Shown here: positions 4,872-43,187 of the stretch, one piece after another
Position numbering within the stretch: position 1 is the stretch's first letter
Layout of the letters: each line of letters begins with the position of its first letter
Source: Planctomycetota bacterium
GTDB taxonomy: Bacteria > Planctomycetota > Phycisphaerae > Phycisphaerales > UBA1924
Direction of reading: 5' to 3'
Length of the DNA: 64,000 nt
Assembly: GCA_024276195.1 (NCBI GenBank)
Contig: JAJRXR010000075.1
Location: 20,012 to 84,011, forward strand
The notes under the pieces: generated by a model
Databases searched by the model: none
Told to the model about the DNA's origin: nothing
What the model saw: the letters and a program-made list of their open reading frames with translations, nothing else
Translations under genes and position numbers: made by a program

Positions 4872-5945
4872 ATGGCGTTCATTGTTGCGCTGGTTCTGCT
4901 GGCTGTCGCCCCGCAGGCCCTGGCCCAGGGAGATACAGCCGACCGGACCGTCGGCGAGGTCATGCAGGACATCGACCAATGGAAGATCCCGCTCCTGGGG
5001 ATTGGGACATTGCTCGTGCTGGCCATCCTCGTCGCGGGGGGGCTGCTCAGGCCGGGCGGGTTCGAGAAGGCGGGGCTGCGCAATATTGACCCCCTGCCCT
5101 GGGGTGTGTGGCTGTTCGCCGCCCTGGTCGTCCTGCTCGCCCAGTCCTCGGCCCACGGCGTTCTCGCGGGCACGGGCGCGCTCGACAAGCTCGGGGGCGA
5201 GGGCGGGCTCAGCGATGAGCAGACGGCGATCGTGCTCAGCCTGGGCGGGTACTTCTTCGGCGCGATAGCGGGTTTCGGGATGCTGTACATCCTGCACAAG
5301 TCCGCGCCCGAGGGGGGGCTGCGCGTCTCGCCGGTCGATCTGCCGCTCGGGCTCGGGTGCTTTGTTCTGGCGTACCCGCTGGTGCAGCTCGCGTCGATCG
5401 GGGCCGTGGCGATCTACAAGTCGTTCCAGGACGGGCAGAGCCCGGACCCGATCGCCCACGACGTGCTCCAGCGGATCAACGAGCAGTTCGCGACCAACAC
5501 GCAGGACATGTGGACGTGGCTGACAATCGGGGCGGCGGTGATCGGGGCGCCGATCGTCGAGGAGCTGATCTACCGGATCTTCATCCAGTCGGGCCTGCTC
5601 AAGCTGCTCAAGAGCCCGTGGGTCTCGATCATCACAACCGCGTTGATCTTCACGGCCATGCACCGCGCCAGCGCGGGCGACAGCGTCCCCGTCCCCTGGC
5701 ACGCGCTCATCCCGCTGCTGGCGCTGGGCATCACGATGGGCGTGGCGTACGAGCGCACGCGGCGCGTCGGCGTGCCCATCGCGATGCACATGTGCTTCAA
5801 CGCGCTCATGGTGACGCTGACGATTCTCGCCTCGGACGCGCCGCGCACGACCGAGCAGGCGCCAGAGCGCACCGGCGACCGCGCGAGCGAGCGGGCGCCC
5901 GAGGCCCAGGACCCCGACCCGAGGTATATGGAGACGGTCCCCTGA
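4872..5945 (+). CDS. CPBP (CAAX protease / bacteriocin-processing) family membrane protease
   Basis: The 357-residue polytopic membrane protein has an N-terminal signal sequence (MAFIVALVLLAVAPQALAQG) and about seven further hydrophobic segments. The C-terminal half contains the three motifs of the CPBP/Abi glutamic-type metal-dependent intramembrane proteases: EELIYR, FTAMH and HMCFN. Members cleave membrane or prenylated substrates; the substrate here is unknown. The ATG at 4872 lies immediately next to the alternative trpC start on the other strand, so the two genes are transcribed divergently from a very tight region. A large palindromic repeat begins 7 bases after the stop. Confidence 0.9.
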   Translation: MAFIVALVLLAVAPQALAQGDTADRTVGEVMQDIDQWKIPLLGIGTLLVLAILVAGGLLRPGGFEKAGLRNIDPLPWGVWLFAALVVLLAQSSAHGVLAGTGALDKLGGEGGLSDEQTAIVLSLGGYFFGAIAGFGMLYILHKSAPEGGLRVSPVDLPLGLGCFVLAYPLVQLASIGAVAIYKSFQDGQSPDPIAHDVLQRINEQFATNTQDMWTWLTIGAAVIGAPIVEELIYRIFIQSGLLKLLKSPWVSIITTALIFTAMHRASAGDSVPVPWHALIPLLALGITMGVAYERTRRVGVPIAMHMCFNALMVTLTILASDAPRTTEQAPERTGDRASERAPEAQDPDPRYMETVP

Positions 5946-5952
5946 GCGTCGT

Positions 5953-6037
5953 CTTGAAGCCCTAAGCGTCAGCGCCGGGTTGGCCTTGCGAACCGCCATG
6001 GGCGCTCGAACCCGGCGCTGACGCTTTGGGCTTCAAG
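5953..6037. repeat. Palindromic repeat, family A (full copy)
   Basis: Two 29-base arms (5953-5981 and 6009-6037) are inverted complements with a single mismatch, around a 27-base centre. The core is AAGCGTCAGCGCCGGGTT. The same core occurs as a half copy at 18656-18685 and as a nearly identical 84-base full palindrome inside rsgA at 52517-52600. It fills the gap between the CPBP protease and trpS. There is no T-run, so it looks like a REP/MITE-type element rather than a simple terminator. Confidence 0.9.
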
Positions 6038-29266: not shown

Positions 29267-30421
29267 CTATCCCGTTGGACGCCCGATCCGCCCGACACAC
29301 TCGACCAGAATCTCGACGCCCCGGTCGATCTGCTCGTCCGTCGTCAGCCTCGACAGGCTCAGGCGGATCGACGAGTCCGCGTCCGTTTCATCGAGCCCCA
29401 TCGCCAGCAGCACCGGCGAGGGCTCGATCGAGCCCGAGGAGCACGCGCTGCCCGCCGAGGCCCACACCCCGCGCTCCGACAACGCCAGGAGCAACCGCTC
29501 GTTCTCGATCCCGGGCAGCAGCAGGTTGGTCGTGTTCCAGATCCGGTCGCCCGGGGCCGAGGCGCCGTTGACTTTGGCGCCGGGGATCCGCCCGAGCAGG
29601 GCGGTTTCCAGGCGGTCGCGCATGGCGCCGAGGCGTTCACGCTCGCTCGGGTCGTCAAGGAAGTCGCCCGCCTCGCGGGCCGCGGCGCCGGCGCCGAGAA
29701 TCCCGGGCACGTTCTCTGTGCCGGCGCGCCGCCCGAGCTCCTGGGCGCCGTGCAGTACCGGCGGGAGCGTCAGCCCCGGGCGCGAATACAGCGCCCCGAC
29801 GCCCTTTGGCCCGTGGAACTTGTGGGCGCTGAGGCTCAGCAGGTCAATCGACGGCGCCTCCGGGGCCGACAGATCCGTCGGGAGCTTGCCCACACGCTGC
29901 ACCGCGTCGGTGTGAAAGAGCACCCCGCGCTCCCGGCACACCGACGCGATCGACCCGATCGGCTGGATGACCCCTGTCTCGTTGTTGACCCACTGCACGC
30001 TGACGATCGCGACGTGCTCGTCGATCAGGTCCGGGGCGGTCGAGAGGTCAACGCGCCCGTCGGGCGCTGCGGGCAGACGCCGGACCTCGACGCCGCTGGT
30101 TTCGAGCGCGTGGGCAAGGTCGCGGACCGCTGCGTGCTCGAGCTCGCTGATGACGATCGCCCGTCGCCCGGTCAGGGCCAGGGCCGAGCGGATGGCCAGA
30201 TCGATCGACTCGGCGCCCGAGCTGGTCAGGGTGAGCTGTCGCGGGGCGGCGCCGATGAGGCGGGCCAGGTCTTGACGGGCGAGCTCGAGGGCGCCGCGGG
30301 CGCCCTGCCCGCCCCGGTGCAGGCTCGACGGGTTGTGCCACGCGGTCTCGAGCCCGCGCCGGACACCCTCGATCACGCCCGGCGTCGGGCGGGTGCTCGC
30401 GTTGGCGTCGAAATCAATCAC
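29267..30421 (-). CDS. Cysteine desulfurase (IscS/NifS family)
   Basis: The 384-residue PLP enzyme takes sulfur from cysteine for iron-sulfur cluster and thiolation pathways. The PLP lysine is K201 in LSAHKFHGPKG. The persulfide-forming Cys is C327 in SAGSACSSG, which marks group I (IscS/NifS). SGAESIDLAI and TENVPG are also family positions. The start is probably GTG 30421 (VIDFDANAST); an in-frame TTG at 30427 is possible. No iscU or iscR gene is beside it, so it may serve general sulfur transfer. Confidence 0.92.
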   Translation of the reverse strand: MIDFDANASTRPTPGVIEGVRRGLETAWHNPSSLHRGGQGARGALELARQDLARLIGAAPRQLTLTSSGAESIDLAIRSALALTGRRAIVISELEHAAVRDLAHALETSGVEVRRLPAAPDGRVDLSTAPDLIDEHVAIVSVQWVNNETGVIQPIGSIASVCRERGVLFHTDAVQRVGKLPTDLSAPEAPSIDLLSLSAHKFHGPKGVGALYSRPGLTLPPVLHGAQELGRRAGTENVPGILGAGAAAREAGDFLDDPSERERLGAMRDRLETALLGRIPGAKVNGASAPGDRIWNTTNLLLPGIENERLLLALSERGVWASAGSACSSGSIEPSPVLLAMGLDETDADSSIRLSLSRLTTDEQIDRGVEILVECVGRIGRPTG

Positions 30422-30487
30422 GGGCAAGTCTATTGAGCGCCCGGGTGGGAGGCGGGGTCGGGCGCCGGGGTCGGGTATCGTCCGTGC

Positions 30488-31303
30488 GTGGACCCGAAGC
30501 AGAGACCAACCGAGATACGAGCGATCGGGCTGGGAAAGTCGTTCGGCGCCCAGCGCGTGCTCGAGGGGATCGACCTGGAGATCGCCCGGGGCGAGATCGT
30601 CGCGATCGCGGGGATGAGCGGCTCGGGCAAGACGGTGCTGCTGGACCTGCTCACGGGCCTGATCGAGGCCAGCGAGGGGCGGGTGCTCATCGCCGACCAC
30701 GCGATGGAGGGATCCCCCCTCGTCGAGCTGAACGCGCTGAGCGAGCGCGAGCTCGACGCGCTGCGCATGCACTGGGCGATCGTCTTCCAGCACAACGCGC
30801 TGTTCAGCGCGACGGTGCGCGAGAACTGCGCGCTCTGGCTCCGCGAGAACGCGCGGATGGGCGAACGCGAGATCGACGAGCGTGTCCGCTGGGCGCTCAA
30901 GTCCGCGGCTCTGGACGTCGAGAGCGTCATCGACAAGCACCGCGACGAGCTCTCCGGGGGCATGGCCAAGCGCGTCGCCGTGGCCCGCGCCATCGCGATG
31001 GACCCGGCGATTATCTTCTACGACGAGCCCACCACCGGGCTCGACCCGATCGTCGCCGGCGAGATCCACGAGCTGATCTGGAACACCCACCACCTGCCCC
31101 TGAGCGACGGCGCCCAGCGCACCAGCATCATCGTCACCCATGACAAAGACCTGCTCCGCCGCCTGCGACCGCGCGTCGTCATGCTCCACAACCGGGGTGT
31201 GTGCTTCGATGGTCCGTACGACAACTTCGGCAAGGACGGGTGCGAGATCGCGGTCGAGTACCTCGCGGCGATGCCCGTGCTCCACGCGAGAACGCCGAGC
31301 TGA
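30488..31303 (+). CDS. Second MlaF-type ABC transporter ATPase
   Basis: 271 residues. Walker A is GMSGSGKTVLLDLL, the signature is LSGGMAKRVAVARAI and Walker B is IIFYDEPTTGLDP. The sequence resembles the MlaF-type ATPase at 27496 (both read SGGM-K/A-KR), so this is a second copy of the same transport class, lying about 2.1 kb away in the other direction. No permease or MCE gene follows it. The GTG start at 30488 is 66 bases from the cysteine desulfurase start, with a divergent promoter between them. Its stop abuts the stop of the TetR gene. Confidence 0.88.
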   Translation: MDPKQRPTEIRAIGLGKSFGAQRVLEGIDLEIARGEIVAIAGMSGSGKTVLLDLLTGLIEASEGRVLIADHAMEGSPLVELNALSERELDALRMHWAIVFQHNALFSATVRENCALWLRENARMGEREIDERVRWALKSAALDVESVIDKHRDELSGGMAKRVAVARAIAMDPAIIFYDEPTTGLDPIVAGEIHELIWNTHHLPLSDGAQRTSIIVTHDKDLLRRLRPRVVMLHNRGVCFDGPYDNFGKDGCEIAVEYLAAMPVLHARTPS

Positions 31304-31936
31304 TTACCCGTGGGGCGCGTTGTCGCTGCCCTTGGGGCCAGCGTCTCGACCGACAAGGATGCGGGTGAGCACGTCCTGAACGTGCCCGCCCTGCTCGTCG
31401 CGCCCGTGACCGGGGATTTTCATCGCGGTCATCACGCCGTAGCCCATGCCGATGTTGATCAGCAGCCACGCGACGACCTGGGCGCTGAAGCGAGCCGTCA
31501 CCTTGTGCTGGTCCTGGGCGAGCTCGATCTCGCGGACGAGGAACTCGTGGACCTTGGTGATGTGGTCGGACAGGGCCTTGTGGATGTCCTCGTCGTCCAC
31601 CTCGCTGATCGCCTGGAGGAAGACGCGGTACCCCGCCCGACCGCGCTCCGAGACCATCGGGTTGTCCCCGATGACGCGGCGCAGACGCTCGCCCGAGTCG
31701 CCCGCGCCCTCGAGGTCCTTGGCCCACTGCTCAAGGGTCTGGCGCCCGGTCCGCTCGATCAGGGCGATGAACAGCCCGCGCTTGGAGGCGAAGTGCCGGT
31801 AGATGATGGGCTCGGTGACGCCCGCGGCCCGGGCCAGCTCCGCGGTGGTGGTCCTGGCGAAACCGCGTTCGCTGAACAACTCAGCCGCACGGTCGAGCAG
31901 CTGCTCGCGTCTTTCTGCGGCCGGTAGGCGGCTCAT
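31304..31936 (-). CDS. TetR-family transcriptional regulator
   Basis: 210 residues. The N-terminal DNA-binding helix-turn-helix is at about 5-55 (ERREQLLDRAAELFSERGFARTTTAELARAAGVTEPIIYRHFASKRGLF), typical of TetR repressors. The C-terminal ligand domain is divergent. I start at ATG 31936 with an upstream AGGGGA. The gene converges on the MlaF-type ATPase gene with no intergenic space. The ligand and target genes are unknown; regulation of the adjacent ABC gene is possible but not shown. Confidence 0.9.
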   Translation of the reverse strand: MSRLPAAERREQLLDRAAELFSERGFARTTTAELARAAGVTEPIIYRHFASKRGLFIALIERTGRQTLEQWAKDLEGAGDSGERLRRVIGDNPMVSERGRAGYRVFLQAISEVDDEDIHKALSDHITKVHEFLVREIELAQDQHKVTARFSAQVVAWLLINIGMGYGVMTAMKIPGHGRDEQGGHVQDVLTRILVGRDAGPKGSDNAPHG

Positions 31937-32005
31937 GCGTCGTCCCCTGTCTGCCCGGGCTCTGCCTGGGATCAACCCCGATCTCGCCAGTAGGTTAGCC
32001 GAGAC

Positions 32006-32344
32006 TCACTCACGCCATTCCGCTTGTCGGCTCGCCTCACCCCTCTGGTTGAGTGGGACCGGGTCATACCCGCCCCGATTCAGCGGATGGCAGCGCAGCA
32101 GGCGCGAAACCATCAGGCGAGTCCCCCGCATCAGCCCGTGAACCCGGTACGCCTCGAGCGCATAGCGCGAGCACGTCGGCTCGAACCGGCACTGCCCGCC
32201 CACGATCGGGCTCAGCGTGAACCGGTACACCCAGATCAACCCCACGATCGGTGCGCACAGAATCCGCGACACCAGCCCCGGCGGCGCGTGCGACAACGCC
32301 TCGGGCACGCGCTCAGCATCGGCGGCGTCCGGGTCGTCAGGCAT
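32006..32344 (-). CDS. yidD: Membrane protein insertion efficiency factor YidD
   Basis: 112 residues. The conserved YidD core is CRFEPTCSRYALEAYRVHG ... LLRCHPLNRGGYDPV, with three Cys. YidD is a small, amphipathic membrane-associated protein thought to help YidC insert inner-membrane proteins. It overlaps the 3' end of rnpA by eight bases, as commonly seen. The usual next gene, yidC, is absent here: the downstream gene is tetR. Confidence 0.93.
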   Translation of the reverse strand: MPDDPDAADAERVPEALSHAPPGLVSRILCAPIVGLIWVYRFTLSPIVGGQCRFEPTCSRYALEAYRVHGLMRGTRLMVSRLLRCHPLNRGGYDPVPLNQRGEASRQAEWRE

Positions 32345-32792
32345 CGCCCGGAGCCCGCTCGGCGGCCCGCCGGTCGCGCCTGGCCTGCTCCCGGCTCGCC
32401 TCGTCGATCAGCTCGCCGAGCAGGCGCGTGTACTCGTCCAGCGAGGCCCGCCCGGAACGCCTGGGCGAGACGATGATGTCGTACGAGCGCATCCCCGGGC
32501 CAGTCGGGCGGGGCAGATCCGGGCGGATCTGGCGGAAGGCCTCGCGGATGAGGCGTTTGAGGCGTGCCCGGGCGACGGCGGACCCGACCCGCTTGCTCAC
32601 GCTCAGCCCGAGCCTGGGCTCGGGGCGATCGGTGGGGAGGATGTGGATGCTGAGCGGGCCACGGGCTTTGCGCAGTTTGTGCGCATAGACGGCGCTGTAC
32701 TCGGTATCGTGCTCGAGGCGGTGGCGGCGGCGGAAGACCAGGACGCGCGCCTGGCCCGGGCGGCGGGGTTGGGTGGGCGGGTTGGGGCTCAC
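32337..32792 (-). CDS. rnpA: Ribonuclease P protein component
   Basis: RnpA, with RNase P RNA, matures the 5' ends of tRNAs. The family core is present in RLGLSVSKRVGSAVARARLKRLIREAFR. At 151 residues it has a longer C-terminus than E. coli RnpA (119). The GTG start (32792) overlaps the stop TGA of the upstream membrane-protein gene by 4 bases (GTGA). The usual upstream partner rpmH is not visible here. Confidence 0.92.
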   Translation of the reverse strand: MSPNPPTQPRRPGQARVLVFRRRHRLEHDTEYSAVYAHKLRKARGPLSIHILPTDRPEPRLGLSVSKRVGSAVARARLKRLIREAFRQIRPDLPRPTGPGMRSYDIIVSPRRSGRASLDEYTRLLGELIDEASREQARRDRRAAERAPGDA

Positions 32793-33343
32793 GTCGAGAG
32801 ACGATAGGGGCGGGCGCCGGCGCGTCTGGGGGTTTCCGGGAGGAGGCCCATGAGGGTGAGCAGGGCGCCGAGTGCGATGAGCCAGAGGCGGGAGGTGGGA
32901 CCCAGGGCCAGGCGGGCGAGCGTTGAGCGGTGCTCGGCGCGGGCTGGCAGGATCGGGGGGTCGGGCTCGAGGGCCTGGAAGATGCCAACGGCGGGCGCGG
33001 CGGGCTCGGGCAGGTCCAGCGCGGCCCGGTCTTTGGGGACGAGATTGAGCTGGGCGGTCGCCAAGGCGCGGGCCAGGGCGGGGTCGTCGGATCGGAGGGC
33101 GTCGAGGTAGGCCATGTGGCGGTCGAGACGCTGGAGGTGAGCCCGTTCGAGGACGATGGTCCGGTCGCGCTGCCAGCGGGCGCTGCTGAGCTCATCGGCG
33201 GCGGGGATGAGCAGGGCGGCGGCCAGGAGGGTGACGCCGGACAGGAGCAGGAGCCACCCGGCGTCGATCCGGGGCGTGATCCTTCTCTGGCTCTGCCTGG
33301 GGCGCCTTGGCTGGTCGGTGTTGGGCTCTGGGCGCTCGCTCAC
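32789..33343 (-). CDS. Two-helix membrane protein of unknown function
   Basis: 184 residues. A transmembrane helix at about 25-45 (WLLLLSGVTLLAAALLIPAADEL) is followed by a helical section (VLERAHLQRLDRHMAYLDAL) and a second transmembrane helix near the C-terminus (LWLIALGALLTLMGLLPE). A coiled-coil-like stretch separates them, resembling small division or scaffold proteins, but no family match is clear. I start at GTG 33343; a much longer frame upstream is not coding-like. Its stop overlaps the rnpA start, so it is translated with rnpA. Confidence 0.7.
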   Translation of the reverse strand: MSERPEPNTDQPRRPRQSQRRITPRIDAGWLLLLSGVTLLAAALLIPAADELSSARWQRDRTIVLERAHLQRLDRHMAYLDALRSDDPALARALATAQLNLVPKDRAALDLPEPAAPAVGIFQALEPDPPILPARAEHRSTLARLALGPTSRLWLIALGALLTLMGLLPETPRRAGARPYRLST

Positions 33344-33454
33344 GCGGGGGCTATCGGGCGAGGGGGCGGTCGGGCCTGAAACACGGGGCGGTGGTCGGGC
33401 GGAAGGGAGCGGGACAGTGCGGGCAGCGATCGTGCGCCCGTAGACTTGTCGGAC

Positions 33455-34813
33455 ATGCGTGAAGGCGTCGTCATCACGGGGATCGGGACGGTGTGCGGGC
33501 TGGGCATCGGGGCGGATGCGCTGTGGGACGGGCTGTGCGCACCGCGGTCGGCGATCGGACCGATCACGCGGTTCGACGCCTCGGGGCTGCGCAGCCGCCT
33601 GGCGAGCGAGGCGCCCGAGTTCTCGGTGCGTGACAGCGTGCCCAAGAGCTACCGCAAGGCGACGAAGGTGATGTGCCGGGACACGGAGCTGGCGGTCGTC
33701 GCGGCTCGGCTCGCGGCGCTCGACGCGGGGGTGCGCACGCGCGGGAGCGACGAGGCGGACGAGGGGTTCGAGATCAGCGGCGAGCGTCTGGGGTGTCACA
33801 TCGGAGCCGGGCTGATCGCGGCGGAGACGGGCGAGCTTGGTCGCGCCCAGGCGACGGGGCTGGATGAGGACGGGGAGTTCTCGATCCGGGCGTGGGGGTC
33901 GGTGGGGGATGAGGCGCGGGGGGCGATGGAGAACCTGACGCCCTTGTGGCTGCTGAAGTACCTGCCGAACATGCCGGCGTGCCATGTGACGATCGTGCAC
34001 GGGGCCGAGGGACCGAGCAACACGATTACCTGCTTCGAGACGAGCGCGCTGCTGTGCCTGGGCGAGTCGTCGCGGGTGATCGAGCGCGGGGGTGCGGACG
34101 TGTGCTTCTCGGGGGGGACGGAGAGCAAGCTGAACCTGGTCGGGATGGTGCGGCTGGAGCACGCCGGGCGGTTGGCGACGACGCCGGTGGATCAGGCGGA
34201 CCGGGCGGGCTCGGAGGTGGTTCGCCCGTACGACCCGCAGAGCGCGGGCGGGGTTGCGGGCGAGGGGGCGGGGATCCTGATGCTCGAGGGGATGGGGCAC
34301 GCGCGGGGGCGCGGGGCGCGGGTGTACGCACAGGTCGCCGGGTTTGGCGCGGCGCAGACGCGCACGGCGGTTGACGCGATCTACGGCGAGCCGGTCGAAC
34401 GCGACGAGGGGCTGAGCGACGCGATACTGAGCGCGCTGCGCGACGCGGGGATCACGGCGGAGCAGGTCGACGCGATCGTGCCCGGGGCGCAGGGAGCGGC
34501 GGCGCTCGACCGGGCGGAGGCGGGGGCGCTGTCGGGCGTGTTTGGTGAGCGCCTGCGCGAGATCCCGCTGGTGACGATCAGCCCGAACGTGGGTTCGTGC
34601 GTCGCCGGGCAGGGGGGGCTGCAGACGGCGGTCGCGGCGATGTGCCTGCACAGACAGATGCTGCCCGGGCGGATCCACGCGGGGAGGCCTGCGGATGGGC
34701 TCGACGCGGGCGCGGCGGATACGCGCGACGCGCGGTTGACGTATGTGCTGGTGTGCGCCAGCGGGCTCGGCGGACAGAACGCGGCGATCGTCCTGCGTCG
34801 GGACGAGGGCTGA
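33455..34813 (+). CDS. Ketosynthase-fold protein lacking the catalytic triad (KS-beta/CLF-like)
   Basis: 452 residues of the FabF/KS fold. The overall fold is clear (REGVVITGIGTVCGLG, GPSNTITCFETSALLCLGE, VAGEGAGILMLE). Gapless comparison with the intact KS at 35419 shows that the nucleophile Cys position is E195 (Cys193 is two residues before it), the first His motif (NAHGTGT) reads VPGAQGA, and the second His is replaced by Val. It thus cannot condense by the normal mechanism and may act as a KS-beta (chain-length-factor-like) partner. It is on the same strand, 605 bases before the intact KS. The start is ATG 33455; a TTG at 33446 is less likely. Confidence 0.85.
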   Translation: MREGVVITGIGTVCGLGIGADALWDGLCAPRSAIGPITRFDASGLRSRLASEAPEFSVRDSVPKSYRKATKVMCRDTELAVVAARLAALDAGVRTRGSDEADEGFEISGERLGCHIGAGLIAAETGELGRAQATGLDEDGEFSIRAWGSVGDEARGAMENLTPLWLLKYLPNMPACHVTIVHGAEGPSNTITCFETSALLCLGESSRVIERGGADVCFSGGTESKLNLVGMVRLEHAGRLATTPVDQADRAGSEVVRPYDPQSAGGVAGEGAGILMLEGMGHARGRGARVYAQVAGFGAAQTRTAVDAIYGEPVERDEGLSDAILSALRDAGITAEQVDAIVPGAQGAAALDRAEAGALSGVFGERLREIPLVTISPNVGSCVAGQGGLQTAVAAMCLHRQMLPGRIHAGRPADGLDAGAADTRDARLTYVLVCASGLGGQNAAIVLRRDEG

Positions 34814-34821
34814 TGGGACGA

Positions 34822-34847
34822 TGCGAACAGTGCGAACAGTGCGAACG
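34822..34847. repeat. Short tandem repeat TGCGAACAG
   Basis: Nine-base units at 34822-34830 and 34831-34839 with a third partial unit to 34847, between the KS-beta-like gene and the GxxExxY gene. Could affect spacing in the leader; otherwise nothing else is visible there. Confidence 0.7.
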
Positions 34848-34890
34848 ATGAGATCGGATTCTTTCTTACCCTTCACGATGGAGACTCAAC

Positions 34891-35400
34891 ATGTCTGACT
34901 ACGGACGGAACGATCGGGGCGCCAGGCGGGGGACCCCGCTGTCGGATCTGGACCCGGCGCTGACGGATATCTCGCGGCGCGTCATCGGGTGCGCCATCGA
35001 GGTCCACAAAGAGCTCGGCCCCGGCTACCCGCGCGATCTGTACGTCTCGGCGCTGTCCAAGGCGTTGACCAAAGACGGCGTGAACTTCGCAGCGGACGCG
35101 CCGCTGGATGTTTCGTGCTGTGACGAGGTGATCGGGACGGTGACGGCGGACATGTACATCAACGAGCGGTTCCTGGTGGCGTTGTACGCCGAGCACATGG
35201 AGATCGGCTCGCAGGAGCGGTCCGAGCTGCGGGCGCGCCTCCGGGCGGCGGACCAGGAGCTGGGGCTGATTATCAACTTTGGCGAGCGCCGCCTCAAGGA
35301 CGGGCTTGTCCGTGTGCTCAACCCGGACAAGCTCAACCGGCTCCGTGAGGACGAGGAGTATGAGGACGACGACGAGGGCGAGTACGAGGATGATGATTGA
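34891..35400 (+). CDS. Degenerate GxxExxY-family protein (nuclease-fold remnant)
   Basis: 169 residues. The region VIGCAIEVHKELGPGYPRDLY and the later LGLIINFGERRLKDGLVRVLN match the PDDEXK_3/GxxExxY family. The family's name motif is altered: G45-x-x-R48-x-x-Y51, with R for E. The metal-binding D87 (TADMY) is kept, but the ExK pair is replaced by A97 and Y99 (FLVALYAEH). It is therefore unlikely to be an active nuclease. The C-terminus is strongly acidic (EYEDDDEGEYEDDD). A Shine-Dalgarno sequence (GGAGAC) precedes the ATG. It sits between the two ketosynthase-like genes. Confidence 0.8.
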   Translation: MSDYGRNDRGARRGTPLSDLDPALTDISRRVIGCAIEVHKELGPGYPRDLYVSALSKALTKDGVNFAADAPLDVSCCDEVIGTVTADMYINERFLVALYAEHMEIGSQERSELRARLRAADQELGLIINFGERRLKDGLVRVLNPDKLNRLREDEEYEDDDEGEYEDDD

Positions 35401-35418
35401 GCCTCGGAGCGTTGACGA

Positions 35419-36768
35419 ATGAGTGAGCGACGGGTTGTTCTGATGGGCATGGGCCTGGTGACGCCGCTCGGCGAGGATGTCGAGGCGGTGTGGTCCGGAC
35501 TGGTCGCGGGCACGAGCGCGATCGGGCCGGTGACGCGGTTCGACGCGGGGACGTTCGCGACGAACTTCGCGGCGGAGGTGCGCGGGTTTAGCCTGCGCGA
35601 TTCGATCGGGGGCGAGGCGAGTACGCACGAGGGCGCCGGGCAGAGCACGCACTTTGCGCTGGCCGCGTGCGCCCGGGCGTGGGCGCAGGCGGGGCTGGGC
35701 GCGGGCGCGGGGTCGGCGCCGGAGGGCGTGGACCCGCGCCGGATCGGGATCTATCTCGGCGCGGGCGAGGGGCCGCCGGACTTTGAGAGCTTCAGCGCCG
35801 CCAACATCGCGGGCTGGAACGCGGACACACGCACTGTGGACGGGGGCGCCTGGGCGAAGGTCGCGTACGAGCGGCTGAGCAAGATGCGCGAGTTGGAGCA
35901 GGAGCCGAACATGACGGTGGGGCGCCTGGCGAGGGCGTTTGGCGCCCGCGGGCCGGCGTTCAACTGCATGACGGCGTGCGCCGCGAGCACGCAAGCCGTG
36001 GGCGAGGCGAGCGAGATGATCCGGCGCGGGGACGCGGACGTCATGATCGCCGGCGGGGCGCACTCGATGATCCACCCGCTGGGGATGACGGGGTTTATCC
36101 GTCTGACGGCGATGTCCACCCGGCGCGATGACCCGGCGACCGCGTCGCGCCCGTTCGACGCGACGCGCGATGGGTTTGTCATGGGCGAGGGCGCGGGGAT
36201 TGTTGTCATTGAAGAGCTTGGGCACGCGCTGGGGCGCGGGGCGACGCCGCTGGCGGAGATCGCGGGCTATGGCTCGTCGGCGGATGCGTTCCGGATTACC
36301 GATATCCAGCCCGAGGGGCGCGGCGCGACCAGCGCCATGCGCCAAGCGTGCGCCCAGGCGGGCATCGACCCGACGAAGGCGGACGACAAGGGGCGGGCGC
36401 CGGTGCAGTATGTCAACGCGCACGGCACGGGCACGCAAGAGAACGACAAGATCGAGACGACGGCGGTGCGAAACGCCTTTGGGCCGATGGCGGACAAGCT
36501 GCTGTTCGGGTCGGTCAAGAGCATGCTCGGGCACCTGATCCAGGCGGCGGGGGCGGTTGAGCTGATTACCTGTGTCAAGGCGATCGAGACGGGGATCGTC
36601 CCGCCGACGATGAACCTGAAAAACCCGGACCCGAGGTGCGACCTGGACCACATCGCGGGCGAGGCGAGGGATCTGAACCCGAGCGGCGGGGTGGATGTCT
36701 GCCTGTCCAACTCGTTCGGGTTCGGCGGGCAGAACAACACGGTGTGCGTGCGGCGGTACGAGGAGTGA
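35419..36768 (+). CDS. Beta-ketoacyl-ACP synthase II-like ketosynthase
   Basis: 449 residues. The condensing-enzyme active site is complete: C187 in MTACAAST, H335 in NAHGTGT, H372 in KSMLGHLIQAAGA, and K367. It extends acyl chains from acyl and malonyl-ACP by decarboxylative condensation. The sequence is nearer FabF/type II PKS KS-alpha than FabB. It follows the dead nuclease-like gene by 18 bases and pairs with the KS-beta-like protein upstream. No ACP, ketoreductase, thioesterase or cyclase gene is beside it in the window. Confidence 0.93.
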   Translation: MSERRVVLMGMGLVTPLGEDVEAVWSGLVAGTSAIGPVTRFDAGTFATNFAAEVRGFSLRDSIGGEASTHEGAGQSTHFALAACARAWAQAGLGAGAGSAPEGVDPRRIGIYLGAGEGPPDFESFSAANIAGWNADTRTVDGGAWAKVAYERLSKMRELEQEPNMTVGRLARAFGARGPAFNCMTACAASTQAVGEASEMIRRGDADVMIAGGAHSMIHPLGMTGFIRLTAMSTRRDDPATASRPFDATRDGFVMGEGAGIVVIEELGHALGRGATPLAEIAGYGSSADAFRITDIQPEGRGATSAMRQACAQAGIDPTKADDKGRAPVQYVNAHGTGTQENDKIETTAVRNAFGPMADKLLFGSVKSMLGHLIQAAGAVELITCVKAIETGIVPPTMNLKNPDPRCDLDHIAGEARDLNPSGGVDVCLSNSFGFGGQNNTVCVRRYEE

Positions 36769-36772
36769 CGGT

Positions 36773-36847
36773 GGCACGGCTGACCGCGCAGCGGCAGCCG
36801 TGCTTTCTTGGTGCTCGCCGCACGGCTGCCCTTACGGGTCAGCCGTG
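36773..36847. repeat. Nested inverted repeat after the ketosynthase gene
   Basis: Outer arms GGCACGGCTGACC (36773-36785) and GGTCAGCCGTG (36837-36847) enclose inner arms GGCAGCCGTGC (36793-36803) and GCACGGCTGCC (36820-36830). The inner and outer arms are themselves related by a shared CACGGCTG core, so it may be a repeat formed by duplication of a smaller unit. It could end transcription, but has no T-run. Confidence 0.75.
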
Positions 36848-36925
36848 GCGCCGGCCATGCGTTCTCCGCGTATGTCTTTCATTGAGCCTGCCTTGCTCGC
36901 CCGATGAAGCTCCCGGAGGCTCCCC

Positions 36926-37573
36926 ATGAAGACCCTGGCCCTGTCCAAGATGGTTTCGGCGTCGGCGGTGCTGGTCGCCTCGGGCGTGGCGCTGCTGTTC
37001 GGGTACCAGCTTGTCCGCGGCGGCATCGTCGAGGACGTGTACAGGGACCGCCTGCGCGAGGTCTCGGGCGAGTATCGAGCGTTGCGAGCGCAGTACAACG
37101 AGGCCGTGCGCCGGACGGCGGTGACTGAGCTGCTTGTTGAGGATGGGCGGTTATCGGTCCGGGTGCGATCGGCGGCCGGGGTCGAGCGGGTGATCGAGAC
37201 GCCGTACGACCCGTCGGGCGAGATCTATGTTGATTACGTCGTGCTCGACGGGCGGGTCTGGATGCGCCGCGTGTTCGACGCACAGACGGCGCCGAGCCGG
37301 GGCGTGCTTATCGACCCGGCGCTGAGCACGATCGACTGGGACGACGAGAGCGCCCGCTTCGGCAAGACGGTCTACCGCTCGCTGGGCGAGGGGCGATGGG
37401 TGATTACGGTCTCGGGCGACGGGTCGCTGGGGATCGGGCCTGGGGGCGAGGCGGCGGCGGAGCTGGGCTCGGCGCCGGAGATCGGGGAGTTTGAGGAGAT
37501 GGAGAAGGATCTCGACGAGGATGTCTCGGGGATCGGGCTCGGCGAGGTGCTGCGCCGACTTGTTGGGGGGTGA
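36926..37573 (+). CDS. Signal-anchored hypothetical protein
   Basis: 215 residues. An N-terminal transmembrane helix (SASAVLVASGVALLFGYQLV) is followed by a helical, charged segment (EDVYRDRLREVSGEYRALRAQYNEAVRR), probably coiled coil, and a beta-rich domain (about 80-185). The C-terminus is acidic (EEMEKDLDEDVSG). It may be a periplasmic protein held to the inner membrane. A Shine-Dalgarno-like GGAGG occurs just upstream. Function unknown; it is between the ketosynthase locus and glyS. Confidence 0.68.
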   Translation: MKTLALSKMVSASAVLVASGVALLFGYQLVRGGIVEDVYRDRLREVSGEYRALRAQYNEAVRRTAVTELLVEDGRLSVRVRSAAGVERVIETPYDPSGEIYVDYVVLDGRVWMRRVFDAQTAPSRGVLIDPALSTIDWDDESARFGKTVYRSLGEGRWVITVSGDGSLGIGPGGEAAAELGSAPEIGEFEEMEKDLDEDVSGIGLGEVLRRLVGG

Positions 37574-37576
37574 GGT

Positions 37577-37686
37577 CGCGAATGGCGAAGTGGCGAAGTG
37601 GCGAAGTGGGGTATTGAGTCGTCCCCGACCTGCCAATCTCGCCATCTCACCACTCGCCATCTCGCCACTCGCCACTCGCCACTCGT
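37577..37686. repeat. Tandem repeats with inverted relation upstream of glyS
   Basis: Left block: GCGAAGTG-type 9-base units repeated three times or more (37577-37610). Right block: CGCCACTCGCCATCT-type units (37632-37686), roughly the complement of the left block with one base fewer per unit. The right block resembles the CTCGCC repeat upstream of hisS (17003-17056). No protein gene is seen in this 163-base gap. Confidence 0.8.
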
Positions 37687-37736
37687 CCCTATCATCGCCC
37701 CACTCCCGCACGCCACCGGGGGGCAAGGAGCGATTG

Positions 37737-39503
37737 ATGGGCGAGCAGACGACGACAACAAAGTCCATGGACGACATTATGGCGCTGTGCAAGCGGCGCG
37801 GGTTTGTCTATCAGGCCTCTGAGATCTACGGCGGGGTGAATGGCTTCTGGGACTACGGGCCGCTGGGGGCGCAGCTCAAGAAGAACCTGCGCGACGCGTG
37901 GTGGCAGGATGTTGTCATGCTCGGGTGCTGCGGCAAGGCGGGGCCGGACGGCAAGCCCGTGCGGATCGTGCCGGTGGACACGTGCATTATTCAGAACCCG
38001 AAGGTGTGGGAGGCGAGCGGGCATGTTGGAGGGTTCAATGATCCGATGGTGATCGACCAGTCAACGCCGGATGGCAAGCGATTCCGAGCGGACCATCTAT
38101 ACGGAATGTACCTCACCTGGTCGATCGATGAATCTCCTGACGAGATGCTTGAAGTACTTGAGGGTTACGCCAACGACACGACGCGCGACTTTCCGCATGG
38201 ACCCAATCTCACCTGTGTGGCAAGCGGGCCAGAGGAAGCGCTTGGAGTTTTTCGCTCAGTCGAGAAAAAGATTCGTGCCGAGATTCGTGTCTATGAGGGC
38301 TCTCACCGATACCCGGTCTTCGAGTACATCTCGAAGCGTGGAGATCATGACAAGCCCATTTTTGGCGCTGTCTTCCCAGTTCCACAGTGGATCCTCAAGC
38401 GACATTCAGCGTGTGTACCGAGTCCGTTTAACGCGCCTTCCCCGGAGTTGTTTGCGCAAATCCCTCCTCAAGGTAAGGTCTCGGAACTCATGGCGCCCCG
38501 CGCCTTCAACCTCATGTTCAAGACGTACATCGGCGCCACGGCGACCGAGGACGACATCGCGTACCTCCGCCCCGAGACGGCTCAGGGCATCTTCATCAAC
38601 TTCAAGAATGTCGTGGACACCACGCGGGTCTCGCTGCCGTTCGGGATCGCCCAGACGGGCAAGGCGTTTCGCAATGAGGTGACGCCGCGGAACTTCACGT
38701 TTCGCAGCCGTGAGTTCGAGCAGATGGAGATCGAGTTTTTCTGCCACCCGGACGAGGCGAAGGCGTGGTACACGTTCTGGCGCGACTGGCGGATGCAGTG
38801 GTGGCAGGACCTGGGGCTCGGGGGAGAGAACCTGATTTTGCGAGAGCACGACACGGACGAGCTGGCGCACTATGCGAAGGAGGGCGCGGGGACGAGCGAT
38901 ATTGAATATCGCTTCCCGTTCACGGCGCCCGGGTACGGCGAGCTCGAGGGAATCGCCGACCGGACGAACTTCGACCTCAAGCAGCACCAGGAGCATTCCA
39001 AGAAGAAGATGGAGTATCACGACACGACGCGGGGCGAGTTGTTGCCCAACGGGCAGCCCAAGGGCGAGTGGTACTTGCCGCATGTGATTGAGCCGAGCGC
39101 GGGGCTGGACCGGGGGGTGCTGGCGTTGTTGTGCGAGGCGTACACGCCGGACCCGGACAGGCCGAGCAAGGTGTACATGAAGTTCCACCCGCGGATCGCG
39201 CCGATCAAGGCGGCGGTCTTCCCGCTGGTCAAGAAGGACGGCATGCCCGAGAAGGCCCGCGAGATCCACGCGGCGTTGGTCACCCGCTTCGGACGCTTTG
39301 GAGCGATTGAGTTCGACGAGAAGCAGTCGATCGGCAAGCGGTACGCCCGGATGGACGAGGCGGGGGCGCCGTTCTGCTTTACGGTCGATGGGCAGACGCT
39401 CGAGGACGGGACCGTGACGGTCCGCGACCGGGACACGCTCGAGCAGACGCGGATACCGGAGGCGCAGGTCCCGGATTTCCTGGGTGAGCGGCTGGGGCTC
39501 TAG
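37737..39503 (+). CDS. glyS: Glycyl-tRNA synthetase (alpha2 type)
   Basis: This class II enzyme of 588 residues charges tRNA-Gly. It is the single-chain dimeric type, not the alpha-beta type. Markers are GFVYQASEIYGGVNGFWDYGPLG, RPETAQGIFINFKNV, GKAFRNEVTPRNFTFRSREFEQMEIEFF and SAGLDRGVLALL. The ATG at 37737 has AAGGAG upstream. Residues about 102-251 (38040-38490) contain the variable insertion between motifs 1 and 2 and are encoded with lower GC and different codon choice (tca, gaa, att, ttt). The tandem repeats upstream lie 51 bases before the ATG. Confidence 0.95.
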   Translation: MGEQTTTTKSMDDIMALCKRRGFVYQASEIYGGVNGFWDYGPLGAQLKKNLRDAWWQDVVMLGCCGKAGPDGKPVRIVPVDTCIIQNPKVWEASGHVGGFNDPMVIDQSTPDGKRFRADHLYGMYLTWSIDESPDEMLEVLEGYANDTTRDFPHGPNLTCVASGPEEALGVFRSVEKKIRAEIRVYEGSHRYPVFEYISKRGDHDKPIFGAVFPVPQWILKRHSACVPSPFNAPSPELFAQIPPQGKVSELMAPRAFNLMFKTYIGATATEDDIAYLRPETAQGIFINFKNVVDTTRVSLPFGIAQTGKAFRNEVTPRNFTFRSREFEQMEIEFFCHPDEAKAWYTFWRDWRMQWWQDLGLGGENLILREHDTDELAHYAKEGAGTSDIEYRFPFTAPGYGELEGIADRTNFDLKQHQEHSKKKMEYHDTTRGELLPNGQPKGEWYLPHVIEPSAGLDRGVLALLCEAYTPDPDRPSKVYMKFHPRIAPIKAAVFPLVKKDGMPEKAREIHAALVTRFGRFGAIEFDEKQSIGKRYARMDEAGAPFCFTVDGQTLEDGTVTVRDRDTLEQTRIPEAQVPDFLGERLGL

Positions 39504-39706
39504 CGGAGGCCGAGCCGCGTGAATCGGTGGGAAAGCTGAAACGCGGGGCGCGGCGCCCCGGTAGAGCAGGCGGGCGCCCGAGAAACGTGGGCGCCGCATG
39601 TCCCAAAGAAATCATTCCGCTGGTGTGAACCGGCGCGGCGGGTCGGAGACTGGCGCCTCGGGTTGGGGCGGGTTCGAGAGCCCGGTTCTGGGGCGGATCC
39701 TGAGCG

Positions 39707-41104
39707 GTGGGGAGCGAAAGCGTGTGGAAGTGGCTGCTGGGGATCGTGATTGTGTTCGCAGTGGTGCTCGGCGGCGGGGCCTTGGTGGTGATCAAATCGC
39801 CGCTGGGTGAGCGGCTGCTCGGGTCGATGAACCAGCAGGGCGGGGGGACGGAGGTTCGCCTGGAGGGCGCCGAGCTTGGGGATCTGGTGCGGACGGTCAG
39901 CGCTCCGGGCTCGATCGAGCCCAAGACCTTGATCAATATTTCGAGCCAGGTCTCGGCGAAGATCACGGCTCTGCCATTCCGCGAGGGCGACAAGGTCGAG
40001 GCGGACGACGTGGTGGTGCGTCTGGACCCGGTGAATCTTGTGGCGCGCCTGGACGCGGTCAAGGCGGCGCTCAAGAGCGAGCGGGCGAGGCTGACGGGGG
40101 CCGAGGCGGGGCTGATCAACGCGAGGCTGAACTTCGAGCGTCTGCGTCAGTTGTTCGAGACGGGCGATGTTCCCAAGGCGGACCTCGACGGGGCCGAGGC
40201 GGGGTTCCTCAGCGCCATGAGCAACAAGCAGGTGATCGAGGCCACGATCGAGCAGGCCCAGGCCACGATCGAGCAGGCGCAGAAGGATCTGGACAACACG
40301 GTCATCAAGAGCCCGATCGACGGGGTGATCACGGTGCTCAACGCGGAGGTGGGCGAGACGGCGGTTGTGGGCACGACCAACACGCCCGGCTCGGTCATCA
40401 TGGAGATCGCGGACCTGTCGGAGATGCTCGTCAAGGCGCAGGTCGATGAGACGAACATCGCGCCCGTCCACGCGGGGCAGGGCGCGACGGTCTACGTCAA
40501 CGCGTACGACGACCGGACCTTCACGGGCAAGGTCCAAAAAGTCGGTCTCAAGCGACAGGTCGCGGCGGACGGGACGGGCGTGTTCAACACCGAGATCCTG
40601 CTCGGGCTCGAGGAGGGCGAGCGCCTCTACTCGGGCCTGACGGCCAGCGTGGACATCGAGGTCGAGAACTTCTACGACGTGATCCGCGTGCCCAGCCAGG
40701 CCGTGCTCGACCGGCGCGTCGAGGATCTGCCCGATGAGGTTGTCAAGGGGTGCGAGCATGTGGACACGACCAAGACGTTTGCGCGGGTGGTGTACCGCCT
40801 GGTCGATGGCAAGGCGGTCGCGACGCCCGTGAGCGTCGGGGCGAGCGATCTGACGCACACCATGATTCTGGGCGGGCTGGACGAGGGCGAGCGGGTGGTG
40901 ACGGGGCCGTACCGGGTGCTGGTGGATCTCAAGCACGACCAGCGCCTCAAGGACAAGGACGCCGAGGCTGCTGAGGGCGAGGACGCGGACGCGTCGGAGC
41001 AGGACGAGGCCAGCGCTGAGGAGTCGGGCGGCGACGCATCTGATGAGGCGGAGGATGCGGACGAGCCTGCGGGCGAGGTCGCGGGGGGCGACGGGGGACC
41101 ATGA
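39707..41104 (+). CDS. MacA/HlyD-family periplasmic adaptor
   Basis: 465 residues from GTG 39707; the GTG at 39722 (VWKWLLGIVIVFAVV), with GGGGAG upstream, is an equally plausible start. One transmembrane helix at the N-terminus is followed by a barrel-sandwich hybrid (QVSAKITALPFREGDKVE), a coiled-coil hairpin (about 110-190) and a beta-barrel domain. This is the MacA-type adaptor linking an ABC permease to an outer-membrane channel. The C-terminus has about 60 Asp/Glu/Ala-rich residues, likely disordered. Its stop overlaps the ABC ATPase start (ATGA). An open frame just upstream (39598-39810) is in another register. Confidence 0.9.
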   Translation: MGSESVWKWLLGIVIVFAVVLGGGALVVIKSPLGERLLGSMNQQGGGTEVRLEGAELGDLVRTVSAPGSIEPKTLINISSQVSAKITALPFREGDKVEADDVVVRLDPVNLVARLDAVKAALKSERARLTGAEAGLINARLNFERLRQLFETGDVPKADLDGAEAGFLSAMSNKQVIEATIEQAQATIEQAQKDLDNTVIKSPIDGVITVLNAEVGETAVVGTTNTPGSVIMEIADLSEMLVKAQVDETNIAPVHAGQGATVYVNAYDDRTFTGKVQKVGLKRQVAADGTGVFNTEILLGLEEGERLYSGLTASVDIEVENFYDVIRVPSQAVLDRRVEDLPDEVVKGCEHVDTTKTFARVVYRLVDGKAVATPVSVGASDLTHTMILGGLDEGERVVTGPYRVLVDLKHDQRLKDKDAEAAEGEDADASEQDEASAEESGGDASDEAEDADEPAGEVAGGDGGP

Positions 41105-41931
41105 GCGACGGGCTCGACAGCTCGCTTCCGATGATCGAGATCCGAGGGCTCCACAAGGTGTTCAAGGTGGGCGAGGGGCGTGTGCACGCGCTGCGCGGGG
41201 TGGACCTGCGGATCATGCCCAACGAGTTTGTGGCGATCATGGGCGCGTCGGGCTCGGGCAAGAGCACGCTGATGAACATCCTGGGCGCGCTCGACAAGCC
41301 GACGAAGGGTGTGTACCTGCTGCGGGGCAAGGCGACGCACGCGATGGGGATGTCGCGCCTGGCGAGTGTGCGCAACGAGGAGATCGGGTTTATCTTTCAG
41401 AGCTTCGAGCTGCTGAACCGGGCGTCGGCGCTGAAGAACGTGATGCTGCCGATGCTGTACTCGAACCAGCGGATTTTTAGCGCCCGGCGGCGCGCCAAGC
41501 GGGCGTTGGAGCTTGTCGGGCTGAGCGATCGGATGAGCCACAGGCCCAACCAGCTCTCGGGCGGGCAGCGTCAGCGTGTCGCGATCGCGCGGGCGCTGGT
41601 GAACGACCCGGCGATCTTGCTGGCCGACGAGCCGACGGGCAACCTGGACACGAAGACGACCTCGGAGATCATCGGTCTGTTCCGCAAGCTGCACGAGAAC
41701 GGGCAGACGATCATCGTGGTGACGCACGAGGAGGACGTCGCGGGGTACAGCGACCGGATCGTGCGCCTGCGTGACGGCGAGATCGTCTCGGACCACCCGA
41801 CGAGCGAGGACCCGATGCACCAGGCGTGGGTGCGCCGGATGAGTGAGGGGATGGGTGGGGTTGCTGGCGCGAGCGAGGCGGAGATCGACGAGGGCAGCCC
41901 GGAGCCCGAGGCGCAGGAGAGCGCGCGATGA
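41101..41931 (+). CDS. MacB-type ABC transporter ATPase
   Basis: 276 residues. Walker A is GASGSGKSTLMNILGALD, the signature LSGGQRQRVAIARAL and Walker B ILLADEPTGNLD, which is the LolD/MacB subfamily. It powers a mechanotransmitting export system with the permease that follows. The C-terminus ends in acidic residues (EIDEGSPEPEAQ). The ATG overlaps the upstream stop by four bases, and its own stop overlaps the next start likewise, so translation is coupled throughout. Confidence 0.94.
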   Translation: MSDGLDSSLPMIEIRGLHKVFKVGEGRVHALRGVDLRIMPNEFVAIMGASGSGKSTLMNILGALDKPTKGVYLLRGKATHAMGMSRLASVRNEEIGFIFQSFELLNRASALKNVMLPMLYSNQRIFSARRRAKRALELVGLSDRMSHRPNQLSGGQRQRVAIARALVNDPAILLADEPTGNLDTKTTSEIIGLFRKLHENGQTIIVVTHEEDVAGYSDRIVRLRDGEIVSDHPTSEDPMHQAWVRRMSEGMGGVAGASEAEIDEGSPEPEAQESAR

Positions 41932-43187
41932 AGGTGATTCTTGCGGTCATCCTGTTTGTTGTGCGCCTGGTGGTGCAGACGGTGTTTTTGGCGCTCGGGC
42001 AGATCTGGGCGAACAAGACGCGGTCGGTGCTGACGTGCCTGGGGATTATTTTCGGTGTGGCCGCCGTGATCGCGGTGGTGGGGTTGCTCGGGGGGATGCG
42101 CGGGTTTGTGCTCAAGGAGTTCGAGACGATCGGCGCCAAGAAGATGTGGGTCTGGGGCGATGTGCCCGAGTCCAAAGAGTCGGTGATGTCGTGGACGGAC
42201 GTCAAGATGACGCTCTCCGAGGCGAAGCTGATCCTTGAGAAGGCGCCGTCGATCGACACGCTCACGCCCATGACCGAGATGGGCATGGGCGTGTCGTACA
42301 AGGGCAAGGTTTTGCAGGGCATCCGGGTCAAGGGGGTGTGGAGCGAGTGGCACGAGATCGAGGACCGTCAGGTAATCTACGGGCGCCCGTTCTCGCGCAT
42401 TGATGAGGAAGAGGCGCGCCAGGTGGCGCTGGTGAACCTGACGGCGATCGAGAAGCTCGGTCTGAGCACGGACCCGTCGGGGGAGTACATCCTGCTGGAT
42501 AACCGGCGGTTCCTGGTGATCGGGCTGGTGGAGACCAAGGACTTCAGCTTCGCCGACGGCGGGCAGGGCGCCGAGGCCGAGATCATCATCCCGTACGCGA
42601 CCGTCAAGTCGATGAACCCGTACTCCGGGGTCTACTTCACGATGCAGATGAAGGACCCGGACGCGGCGGACGACGCCGAGGCGGAGGTCCGGTTCATTCT
42701 TCGCAACCGGCGGGGGCTCGGGCCGGAGGATGAGGACACGTTCGGGATTCAGGTGCTGCAGAGCGTGATCGAGCAGTTCAACATGATCGCCAGCGTCGCG
42801 ACGATCGGGGGGTTCTTTGTCGCGGCGATCTCGCTGTTCGTGGGCGGGATCGGGATCATGAACATCATGCTCGTGTCGGTGTCGGAGCGGACGCGGGAGA
42901 TCGGGCTGCGCAAGGCGGTGGGGGCGAAGCCGCCGACGGTGCTGCTGCAGTTTCTGGTCGAGGCGATCGTGCTGTGCCTGGTGGGCGGGCTGATCGGCCT
43001 CGGGATCGGCCAGGGCGTGATCATGGGCTTCCGCGCCGGGCTGGACTGGATGAGCGAGGCGGGGGTTCCCGTGTGGATCGTGGTGGGGGTGCTGGCGGTG
43101 ACGGGCGCCACGGGCGTGATCTTTGGCATGTTCCCGGCGATCAAGGCGGCCAGGCTCAACCCGATCGACGCGCTGCGCCACGAATAA
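41928..43187 (+). CDS. MacB-type ABC permease (FtsX family)
   Basis: 419 residues. An N-terminal transmembrane helix precedes a periplasmic MacB_PCD domain (about 60-280), then three C-terminal transmembrane helices with the FtsX-family motif MLVSVSERTREIGLRKAVGA. Unlike E. coli MacB the ATPase is a separate gene, as is common elsewhere. It probably exports a peptide, lipoprotein or small molecule with the adaptor and TolC-like protein. The substrate is not indicated. Confidence 0.93.
   Translation: MKVILAVILFVVRLVVQTVFLALGQIWANKTRSVLTCLGIIFGVAAVIAVVGLLGGMRGFVLKEFETIGAKKMWVWGDVPESKESVMSWTDVKMTLSEAKLILEKAPSIDTLTPMTEMGMGVSYKGKVLQGIRVKGVWSEWHEIEDRQVIYGRPFSRIDEEEARQVALVNLTAIEKLGLSTDPSGEYILLDNRRFLVIGLVETKDFSFADGGQGAEAEIIIPYATVKSMNPYSGVYFTMQMKDPDAADDAEAEVRFILRNRRGLGPEDEDTFGIQVLQSVIEQFNMIASVATIGGFFVAAISLFVGGIGIMNIMLVSVSERTREIGLRKAVGAKPPTVLLQFLVEAIVLCLVGGLIGLGIGQGVIMGFRAGLDWMSEAGVPVWIVVGVLAVTGATGVIFGMFPAIKAARLNPIDALRHE

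Follow-up and report, generated by a model that had tools for sequence, protein, structure and literature searches.

The closest described systems are the highly reducing type II polyketide synthases (PKSs) of the ishigamide, aryl polyene and cinnamoyl-lipid kind, which in the parts of three papers drawn on here comprise a ketosynthase-chain length factor (KS-CLF) pair, an acyl carrier protein (ACP), a ketoreductase (KR) and dehydratases (DH) (PMC10698177, PMC8358021, PMC9381841). Their ACP, KR and DH are dedicated, no enoyl reductase takes part, and the product is a polyene. Aromatic type II PKSs likewise have an adjacent pair of one fold, a KSalpha and a Cys-less KSbeta, or CLF. Gln is the usual residue at the Cys site of a CLF. 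The pair described here comes from a 64,000-nucleotide stretch of a Planctomycetota genome (assembly GCA_024276195.1, contig JAJRXR010000075.1, positions 20,012 to 84,011), called the window below, in which three genes on one strand code for a KSbeta, a protein of the GxxExxY family and a KSalpha. A special ACP and two dehydratases, DH1 and DH2, are encoded elsewhere in the same genome. From sequence comparison we consider it probable (roughly 0.62) that KSbeta and KSalpha join as a heterodimer to serve as the condensing enzyme in a dedicated type II fatty-acid or polyketide synthase. Its likeness to the highly reducing type II PKSs would be one of mode of action as distinct from class membership.

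Parts of such a system have been seen before, and the sequence-only reading of the window, which saw here the best candidate for an undescribed system, was too strong in this respect. The Rhodopirellula baltica FabF paralogues RB3714 (Asp163) and RB4527 (Glu163) carry an acid in place of Cys163 (Rattray 2009, PMC2649909). The portion of that paper used here treats ladderane synthesis, with the Kuenenia paralogues Kuste3606/2805/3348, and contains neither a KSalpha partner nor a special ACP/DH cassette nor order-wide conservation; the likeness is one of description, not of alignment. It further reports radical SAM (S-adenosylmethionine) and phytoene-desaturase genes with KS paralogues in anammox ladderane clusters. 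None was seen among the Pfam-scanned proteins neighbouring our genes, although no systematic search for them was made. The KS-CLF catalogue of McBride et al. (2023, PMC10132072) lists pairs in Planctomycetes and Candidatus Omnitrophica, plus a large unexplored and mainly non-actinobacterial clade; the portion consulted does not go into the anatomy of those pairs and mentions neither a split nor an acid residue nor universality.

The window belongs to a genome of 3.04 Mb in 88 contigs which, by the titles of matching records, is related to Phycisphaerales. The features of the locus are:

33455..34813, plus strand: KSbeta, a protein of the KS fold with Glu for the nucleophile and both catalytic His replaced
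34037..34039, plus strand: codon GAG of KSbeta Glu195, which replaces the active-site Cys
34891..35400, plus strand: GxxExxY protein, of a PD-(D/E)XK fold family, with the ExK dyad lost and an acidic C-terminal tail
35419..36768, plus strand: KSalpha, a FabF-like KS with Cys187/His335/His372 and Lys367 intact
35977..35979, plus strand: codon TGC of the KSalpha nucleophile Cys187

The best NCBIfam E-values are 2.2e-62 for KSbeta, 6.1e-19 for the GxxExxY protein and 2.2e-125 for KSalpha, and the ratios of nonsynonymous to synonymous substitution (dN/dS) relative to the related locus L035 are 0.27, 0.11 and 0.13. On these grounds the three-gene observation is not a matter of chance. A partial KSbeta copy in L039 gives 0.32, and a second value for the GxxExxY protein is 0.10. 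KSbeta is under purifying selection, which is weaker than that on its neighbours (0.10-0.13). According to the gene list and a Pfam scan, no ACP, reductase or cyclase lies beside the KS pair in the window, and no tailoring gene was recognised next to it. The canonical ACP and FabF of this genome sit on a different contig, which indicates that the pair is additional to housekeeping fatty-acid synthesis.

The KSbeta reading frame is open from a TTG at 33446, and the Cys site is E195 when counted from the ATG at 33455 (E198 from the TTG). Pfam recognises the N and C domains of ketoacyl-synt (82.3 and 50.3 bits), so the KS fold with Glu for the active Cys, proposed from the sequence alone, is borne out. 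In the alignment, G, S and S take the places of both catalytic His residues and of the Lys. The accompanying claim that no catalytic His is left thus applies to the window protein but not to its family, where the first His is kept in 49 and the second in 22 of 128 distinct rows. At the Cys site these rows have E (91), D (26), Q (5), S (5) or A (1). An acid or amide is found in 122 of them, and Ser or Ala is confined to six Omnitrophota rows. The rows from the window's order have E 55, Q 3 and D 2, and nine order-like loci have E. This pattern, which includes Gln in five rows, could be read as that of a KSQ-like decarboxylase which generates an acetyl primer from malonyl-ACP, with Glu or Asp standing in for the Gln of loading KSQ domains. 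We regard this as improbable: the window KSbeta lacks both His that assist decarboxylation, the family keeps them only in the minority of rows just given, and the six Omnitrophota rows carry neither acid nor amide.

With KSbeta as query, a match of E<=4e-68 was found in 120 of the 121 sampled genomes of the order. This cut-off was chosen by us, and raw tallies of 121/121 (order) and 140/149 (phylum) were discarded because FabF and KSalpha pass the cut-offs used for them. The exception is G018, where the best match reaches merely 1.1e-40, the level of a paralogue, and where KSalpha lies near a contig end. The faster evolution of KSbeta and its lost catalytic residues might suggest a decaying FabF duplicate without function. 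This is scarcely credible, however, for a protein that is kept practically throughout the order, in other classes and in Omnitrophota, with its acid conserved and with invariant residues that fall within P166-V181. In genomes G187, G143, G166, G236 and G221 of the same phylum (L298-L304) there are several KSbeta copies per genome without a KSalpha neighbour; in L298 and L302 one of these adjoins a FabF-like gene, after which come FabD- and PlsX-like genes (the latter two named by eye).

For KSalpha the alignment confirms the C187/H335/H372 triad recognised at first sight and adds K367. In the KSalpha set as a whole, Cys is present in 85 of 94 members. The remaining nine, which have E (5), D (3) or A (1), occupy KSbeta places and score better with P0003. 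KSalpha is found at E<=1e-130 in 118 of the 121 order genomes. Outside the window's family, KSbeta and KSalpha are at most 1.5 kb apart on one strand in 78 of 84 order genomes, 66 of these 78 having a spacing of 3-120 bp. In the six remaining genomes the distance is 7.1 kb (G033) or 1.9 kb (G118), the genes are on different contigs (G082), or there is no KSalpha at this E-value (G019, G091 and G114); in G019, KSalpha adjoins KSbeta but is in two pieces. The initial reading as a KSalpha/KSbeta pair is supported to this extent: the pair is deeply conserved and belongs to a larger, chain-building gene set.

The other part of this set became evident on a different contig of the window's own genome, where a second ACP is flanked by two dehydratases. 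Their positions, computed from locus L118, are:

contig C34, 28259-28687, minus strand: DH1
contig C34, 27773-28159, minus strand: special ACP
contig C34, 27228-27749, minus strand: DH2

The order DH1-ACP-DH2 on one strand recurs in 17 of 20 further order genomes for which the locus was fetched. The three others are L245, with the best DH1 match inverted and at a distance of 2.6 kb, L246, with none, and L262, at a distance of 3.2 kb. The special ACP, of about 128 residues, occurs in 118 of 121 order genomes. In 13 genomes it shares a contig with KSbeta, always at a distance of at least 488 kb, and in 104 genomes it is on a different contig, so that no distance can be obtained. DH1 retains the His, Gly and Glu of FabZ, and its His and Glu are kept in the 20 loci that have a DH1; the alignment of 21 rows includes L246, whose best match is its DH2. 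In DH2, His and Glu are found in 21 of 21 loci while the PG site is altered, its Gly being present in just two. The remark that no ACP, reductase or cyclase stands beside the pair is thus correct for the locus, but the pair is not alone, since an ACP and two dehydratases occur elsewhere in the genome and lie beside the pair in other lineages. In L118 (5425-8688) a fused aroD-aroE-like gene adjoins the cassette. This may hint at an aromatic starter or be due to chance, and the idea was dropped as too patchy: a fused aroD-aroE accompanies the cassette at 7 of 21 loci, and 7 of 171 sources have a class II DAHP (3-deoxy-D-arabino-heptulosonate 7-phosphate) synthase close to the KS genes.

In other Planctomycetota and in Omnitrophota, two dehydratases and an ACP precede the KSbeta-KSalpha pair. 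The upstream order in Planctomycetota is a FabA/FabZ-like dehydratase, often but not always a FabG-type reductase, a long ACP and a second dehydratase. The complete series DH-KR-ACP-DH-KSbeta-KSalpha is contiguous in L065, L305 and L306. L046 and L308 have a contiguous cluster without the KR, and L307 is arranged in the same way up to a contig end inside KSalpha; L308 and L307 come from genomes of the same class outside the window's order. TIGR01830 is the best model for the KRs of L065, L305 and L306 (300, 294 and 275 bits; cut-off 298), and with PRK12826.1-2, a model for a FabG subfamily, all three score above its cut-off. In Omnitrophota a dehydratase and the ACP are upstream, with the second dehydratase immediately before KSbeta in L057 and L058. 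As pair and cassette are contiguous in these lineages and apart in the window's order, the order most likely carries an ancestral gene set that was cut in two.

The contiguous clusters thus share with the highly reducing type II PKSs an ACP, a FabG-type KR, two dehydratases, a KSalpha and a Cys-less partner KS. A further common feature is found in a Streptomyces plasmid cluster (L289; NZ_CP108813.1, 1-9203), which has fabD, ACP, reductase, DH, KS, DH, KS, fused KS and KS III genes and an ACP of the same long type as the planctomycete one (35% over 130 residues). In the L289 KSbeta the alignment shows Ala at the Cys site and Asp in the adjacent position. In contrast to the highly reducing PKSs, the planctomycete set is split between two places, is near-universal in an order and has a partner with mostly Glu or Asp, not Gln. 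It differs from aromatic type II PKSs in that no cyclase or aromatase was seen and in that the Gln of three CLFs (DQA/EQA, L285-L287) is Glu in the window KSbeta, Gln being present in just the five family rows counted above.

In a tree of 71 KS rows, which includes these three CLFs from Streptomyces aromatic PKSs, the KSalpha of the clusters form a single group (support 99/94) and the KSbeta form their own group (95/76 with all 30 rows). Planctomycetota and Omnitrophota occur in each. The topology test does not reject a union of KSbeta with KSalpha (p 0.497). Among 149 genomes drawn evenly from the phylum, KSbeta reaches at least 415 bits in 24, the next genome having 337 bits. KSalpha (E<=1e-100) in 22 genomes and the special ACP (E<=3.4e-25) in 23 all fall inside these 24, and the other 125 carry none of the three at the chosen cuts, five of them having weaker ACP matches (7e-15 to 3.6e-11). 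These cut-offs were fixed after the score gaps had been seen, and related genomes are not independent. Since 125 of 149 genomes have no KSbeta match of at least 415 bits, the system is not phylum-wide.

We propose the following mode of action. KSalpha and KSbeta would pair as a heterodimer, and the special ACP would carry the malonyl units. Cys187 of KSalpha would hold the growing chain and condense it, while KSbeta, which has no nucleophile, may be structural and line the pocket, with an influence on chain length or on the choice of primer. Reduction would be due to a FabG-type ketoreductase, encoded in the cluster in other Planctomycetota and here perhaps the general one. The DH1/DH2 pair would then dehydrate the product, so that the acyl chain would be unsaturated if no general enoyl reductase takes part. 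Near-universal presence in the order favours a core function, perhaps in a membrane or envelope acyl chain, over an ordinary secondary metabolite. Downstream of the clusters in other lineages there are genes for alpha/beta hydrolases, GH3 and DUF362 proteins and thioester reductases; in view of these genes, the product may differ from lineage to lineage. Specifically, the contiguous clusters are followed in L305 (8085-12126), L054 (11816-13558) and L081 (12563-14266) by genes for GH3 proteins, for a methyltransferase and for an iron-sulfur protein of the DUF362 type.

Several observations weigh against a dedicated synthase of this kind. Presence in practically all genomes of the order is unlike most secondary metabolism. 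KSbeta and KSalpha are separated, from each other and from the middle gene, in 7 of the 36 genomes of the window's family, and they are also separated in G077, G098 and G101; many loci titled Planctomycetaceae and similar have a KSbeta without a KSalpha neighbour. The split cassette contains no ketoreductase, although the window genome was not searched for FabG or enoyl reductase. In Omnitrophota the reductase is on the opposite strand, and in L058 it resembles the enoyl reductase FabL (287 bits; cut-off 328), which argues against a polyene pathway free of enoyl reduction in that phylum. The best tree keeps KSbeta apart from the three CLFs; joining them costs 18.7 log-likelihood units and is not rejected (p-AU 0.066), and the join of KSbeta to the Streptomyces plasmid KSbeta is weak (49/27). 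As to the L058 gene itself, this short-chain dehydrogenase/reductase (5188-5979) is divergent and lies next to a DH-ACP-DH-KSbeta-KSalpha-thioester reductase cluster.

Some of these points would suit a second housekeeping fatty-acid elongation system better than a PKS. It would supply a special membrane or envelope acyl chain, and the part of KSbeta in it would be that of a subunit with a regulatory or structural role. Rhizobia have a system comparable in kind, the AcpXL very-long-chain system. Such a system could be practically universal in the order and could be split and scattered without loss, and both the lack of a recognised tailoring gene beside the window pair and the FabL-like gene adjoining the cluster in Omnitrophota would agree with it. 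Both KS proteins score best with FabF models of NCBIfam, and KSalpha reaches 414 bits with PRK07314, a subfamily model of FabF type (cut-off 387), although it stays below the FabF equivalog (418 bits; cut-off 494). For ordinary fatty-acid synthesis, however, the alpha/beta hydrolase, GH3, DUF362 and thioester-reductase genes of other lineages would be superfluous. We treat this second elongation system as a possible alternative of less than even probability and prefer the dedicated synthase that works like the highly reducing PKSs.

The protein encoded between the two KS genes matches the GxxExxY profile TIGR04256 (68.5 bits; cut-off 35) and Pfam PF13366, PDDEXK_3 (69.8 bits, above cut-off). 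As the sequence-only reading had it, the ExK dyad is replaced (A97 and Y99) and the namesake Glu is Arg (R48); D87, H39, G45, Y51, N129 and R141 are retained. All 36 genomes of the window's family gave a match of family grade (at least 122 bits, the next being 77); none of the 85 other order genomes sampled did. The gene lies between the KS genes in 25 of the 36, beside KSalpha only in two (G077 and G101), beside KSbeta only in two (G089, at a contig end, and G098) and apart from both in seven. With these 25 genomes, and with loci L035-L043, the three-gene order is clearly not peculiar to the genome of the window.

Among 37 different rows of the linked set the ExK Lys is lost in 36, the ExK Glu in 22 and D87 in nine, the namesake Glu is kept in seven, and a new Arg133 is invariant (37/37). 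Nine further copies have all lost the Lys; in seven of the nine, the gene is adjacent to neither KS gene. All 20 unlinked paralogues that were fetched, mostly high scorers, keep D, E and K. The protein thus fits the family profile, but with the ExK dyad and mostly also the namesake Glu lost. It is a family-level addition, predicted from these residues to be dead as a nuclease, and under purifying selection. A binding role would agree with lost catalytic residues and strong selection of this kind. The idea that it was kept for binding instead of cutting is supported as far as the clade-wide loss and the selection go. In the scheme above it would be an accessory added by one family and no longer a nuclease. 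That it is perhaps retained as a binding partner seems to us tentative and somewhat doubtful.

A passenger with an unrelated job, which came to lie between the KS genes by chance in one family, has about an even chance of being correct. The 85 order genomes without a family-grade copy speak for it, as does the lack of relatives by sequence in the Protein Data Bank (a single match at E 0.88). In six genomes of genus g2, moreover, the gene is apart from both KS genes and adjoins counterparts of two other window genes, the one for the cysteine desulfurase (51-55% identity) and the ABC gene (36-38%), to which they are homologous. A chance passenger would not be expected in every genome of the family, between the KS genes in 25 and with one KS neighbour in four more, nor with a residue pattern so unlike that of the unlinked proteins. 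In five of the six g2 genomes (L149-L153) KSbeta stays near rnpA, yidD and TetR homologues, whereas L154 gave no match. The window locus seems to be broken in this genus, with every piece retained. The broken locus is seen in L311-L314, L316, L317 and L149-L153, its window counterpart being 29267-32792. A more far-reaching proposal is that Phycisphaerales possess, among their core functions, a second acyl-chain synthase with a Glu/Asp-type KSalpha/KSbeta heterodimer as its basis, and that in one family a disarmed PD-(D/E)XK nuclease fold has become a subunit or an assembly factor devoted to this synthase; we consider this unlikely.

Of the surroundings, window positions 39707-43187 hold consecutive HlyD-like, ABC ATPase and MacB-like permease genes (named by eye), probably an efflux or lipoprotein-export set. 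No RNA family reached gathering score in window positions 32000-40000, and a pattern scan of a viral collection yielded no KSbeta relatives. In the literature, partial texts report zero type II PKS clusters in each of three Phycisphaerae strains in an antiSMASH table, P. mikurensis among them with one arylpolyene-related gene (PMC8882080), and, for Omnitrophota among other phyla, clusters with the label 'ladderane' and without a known function (PMC9902471). As far as their consulted parts go, PMC10896814 concerns type III PKS and PMC8934634 merely mentions a GxxExxY domain beside a reverse transcriptase (RT). A literature search restricted to PMC gave no account of the split set, of its order-wide conservation or of a dead GxxExxY clade.

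If our interpretation is correct, the order-wide KSalpha/KSbeta-ACP-DH system encoded in two places would be a core pathway in the lipid or polyketide chemistry of planctomycetes that has so far been overlooked. KSbeta, KSalpha, ACP, DH1 and DH2 are a defined gene set that is open to genetic and chemical testing. The disarmed GxxExxY protein offers a clean case for the question of what dead nuclease folds do and, should the recruited-subunit proposal be true, a nuclease fold would have been turned into a component of a lipid or polyketide synthase.

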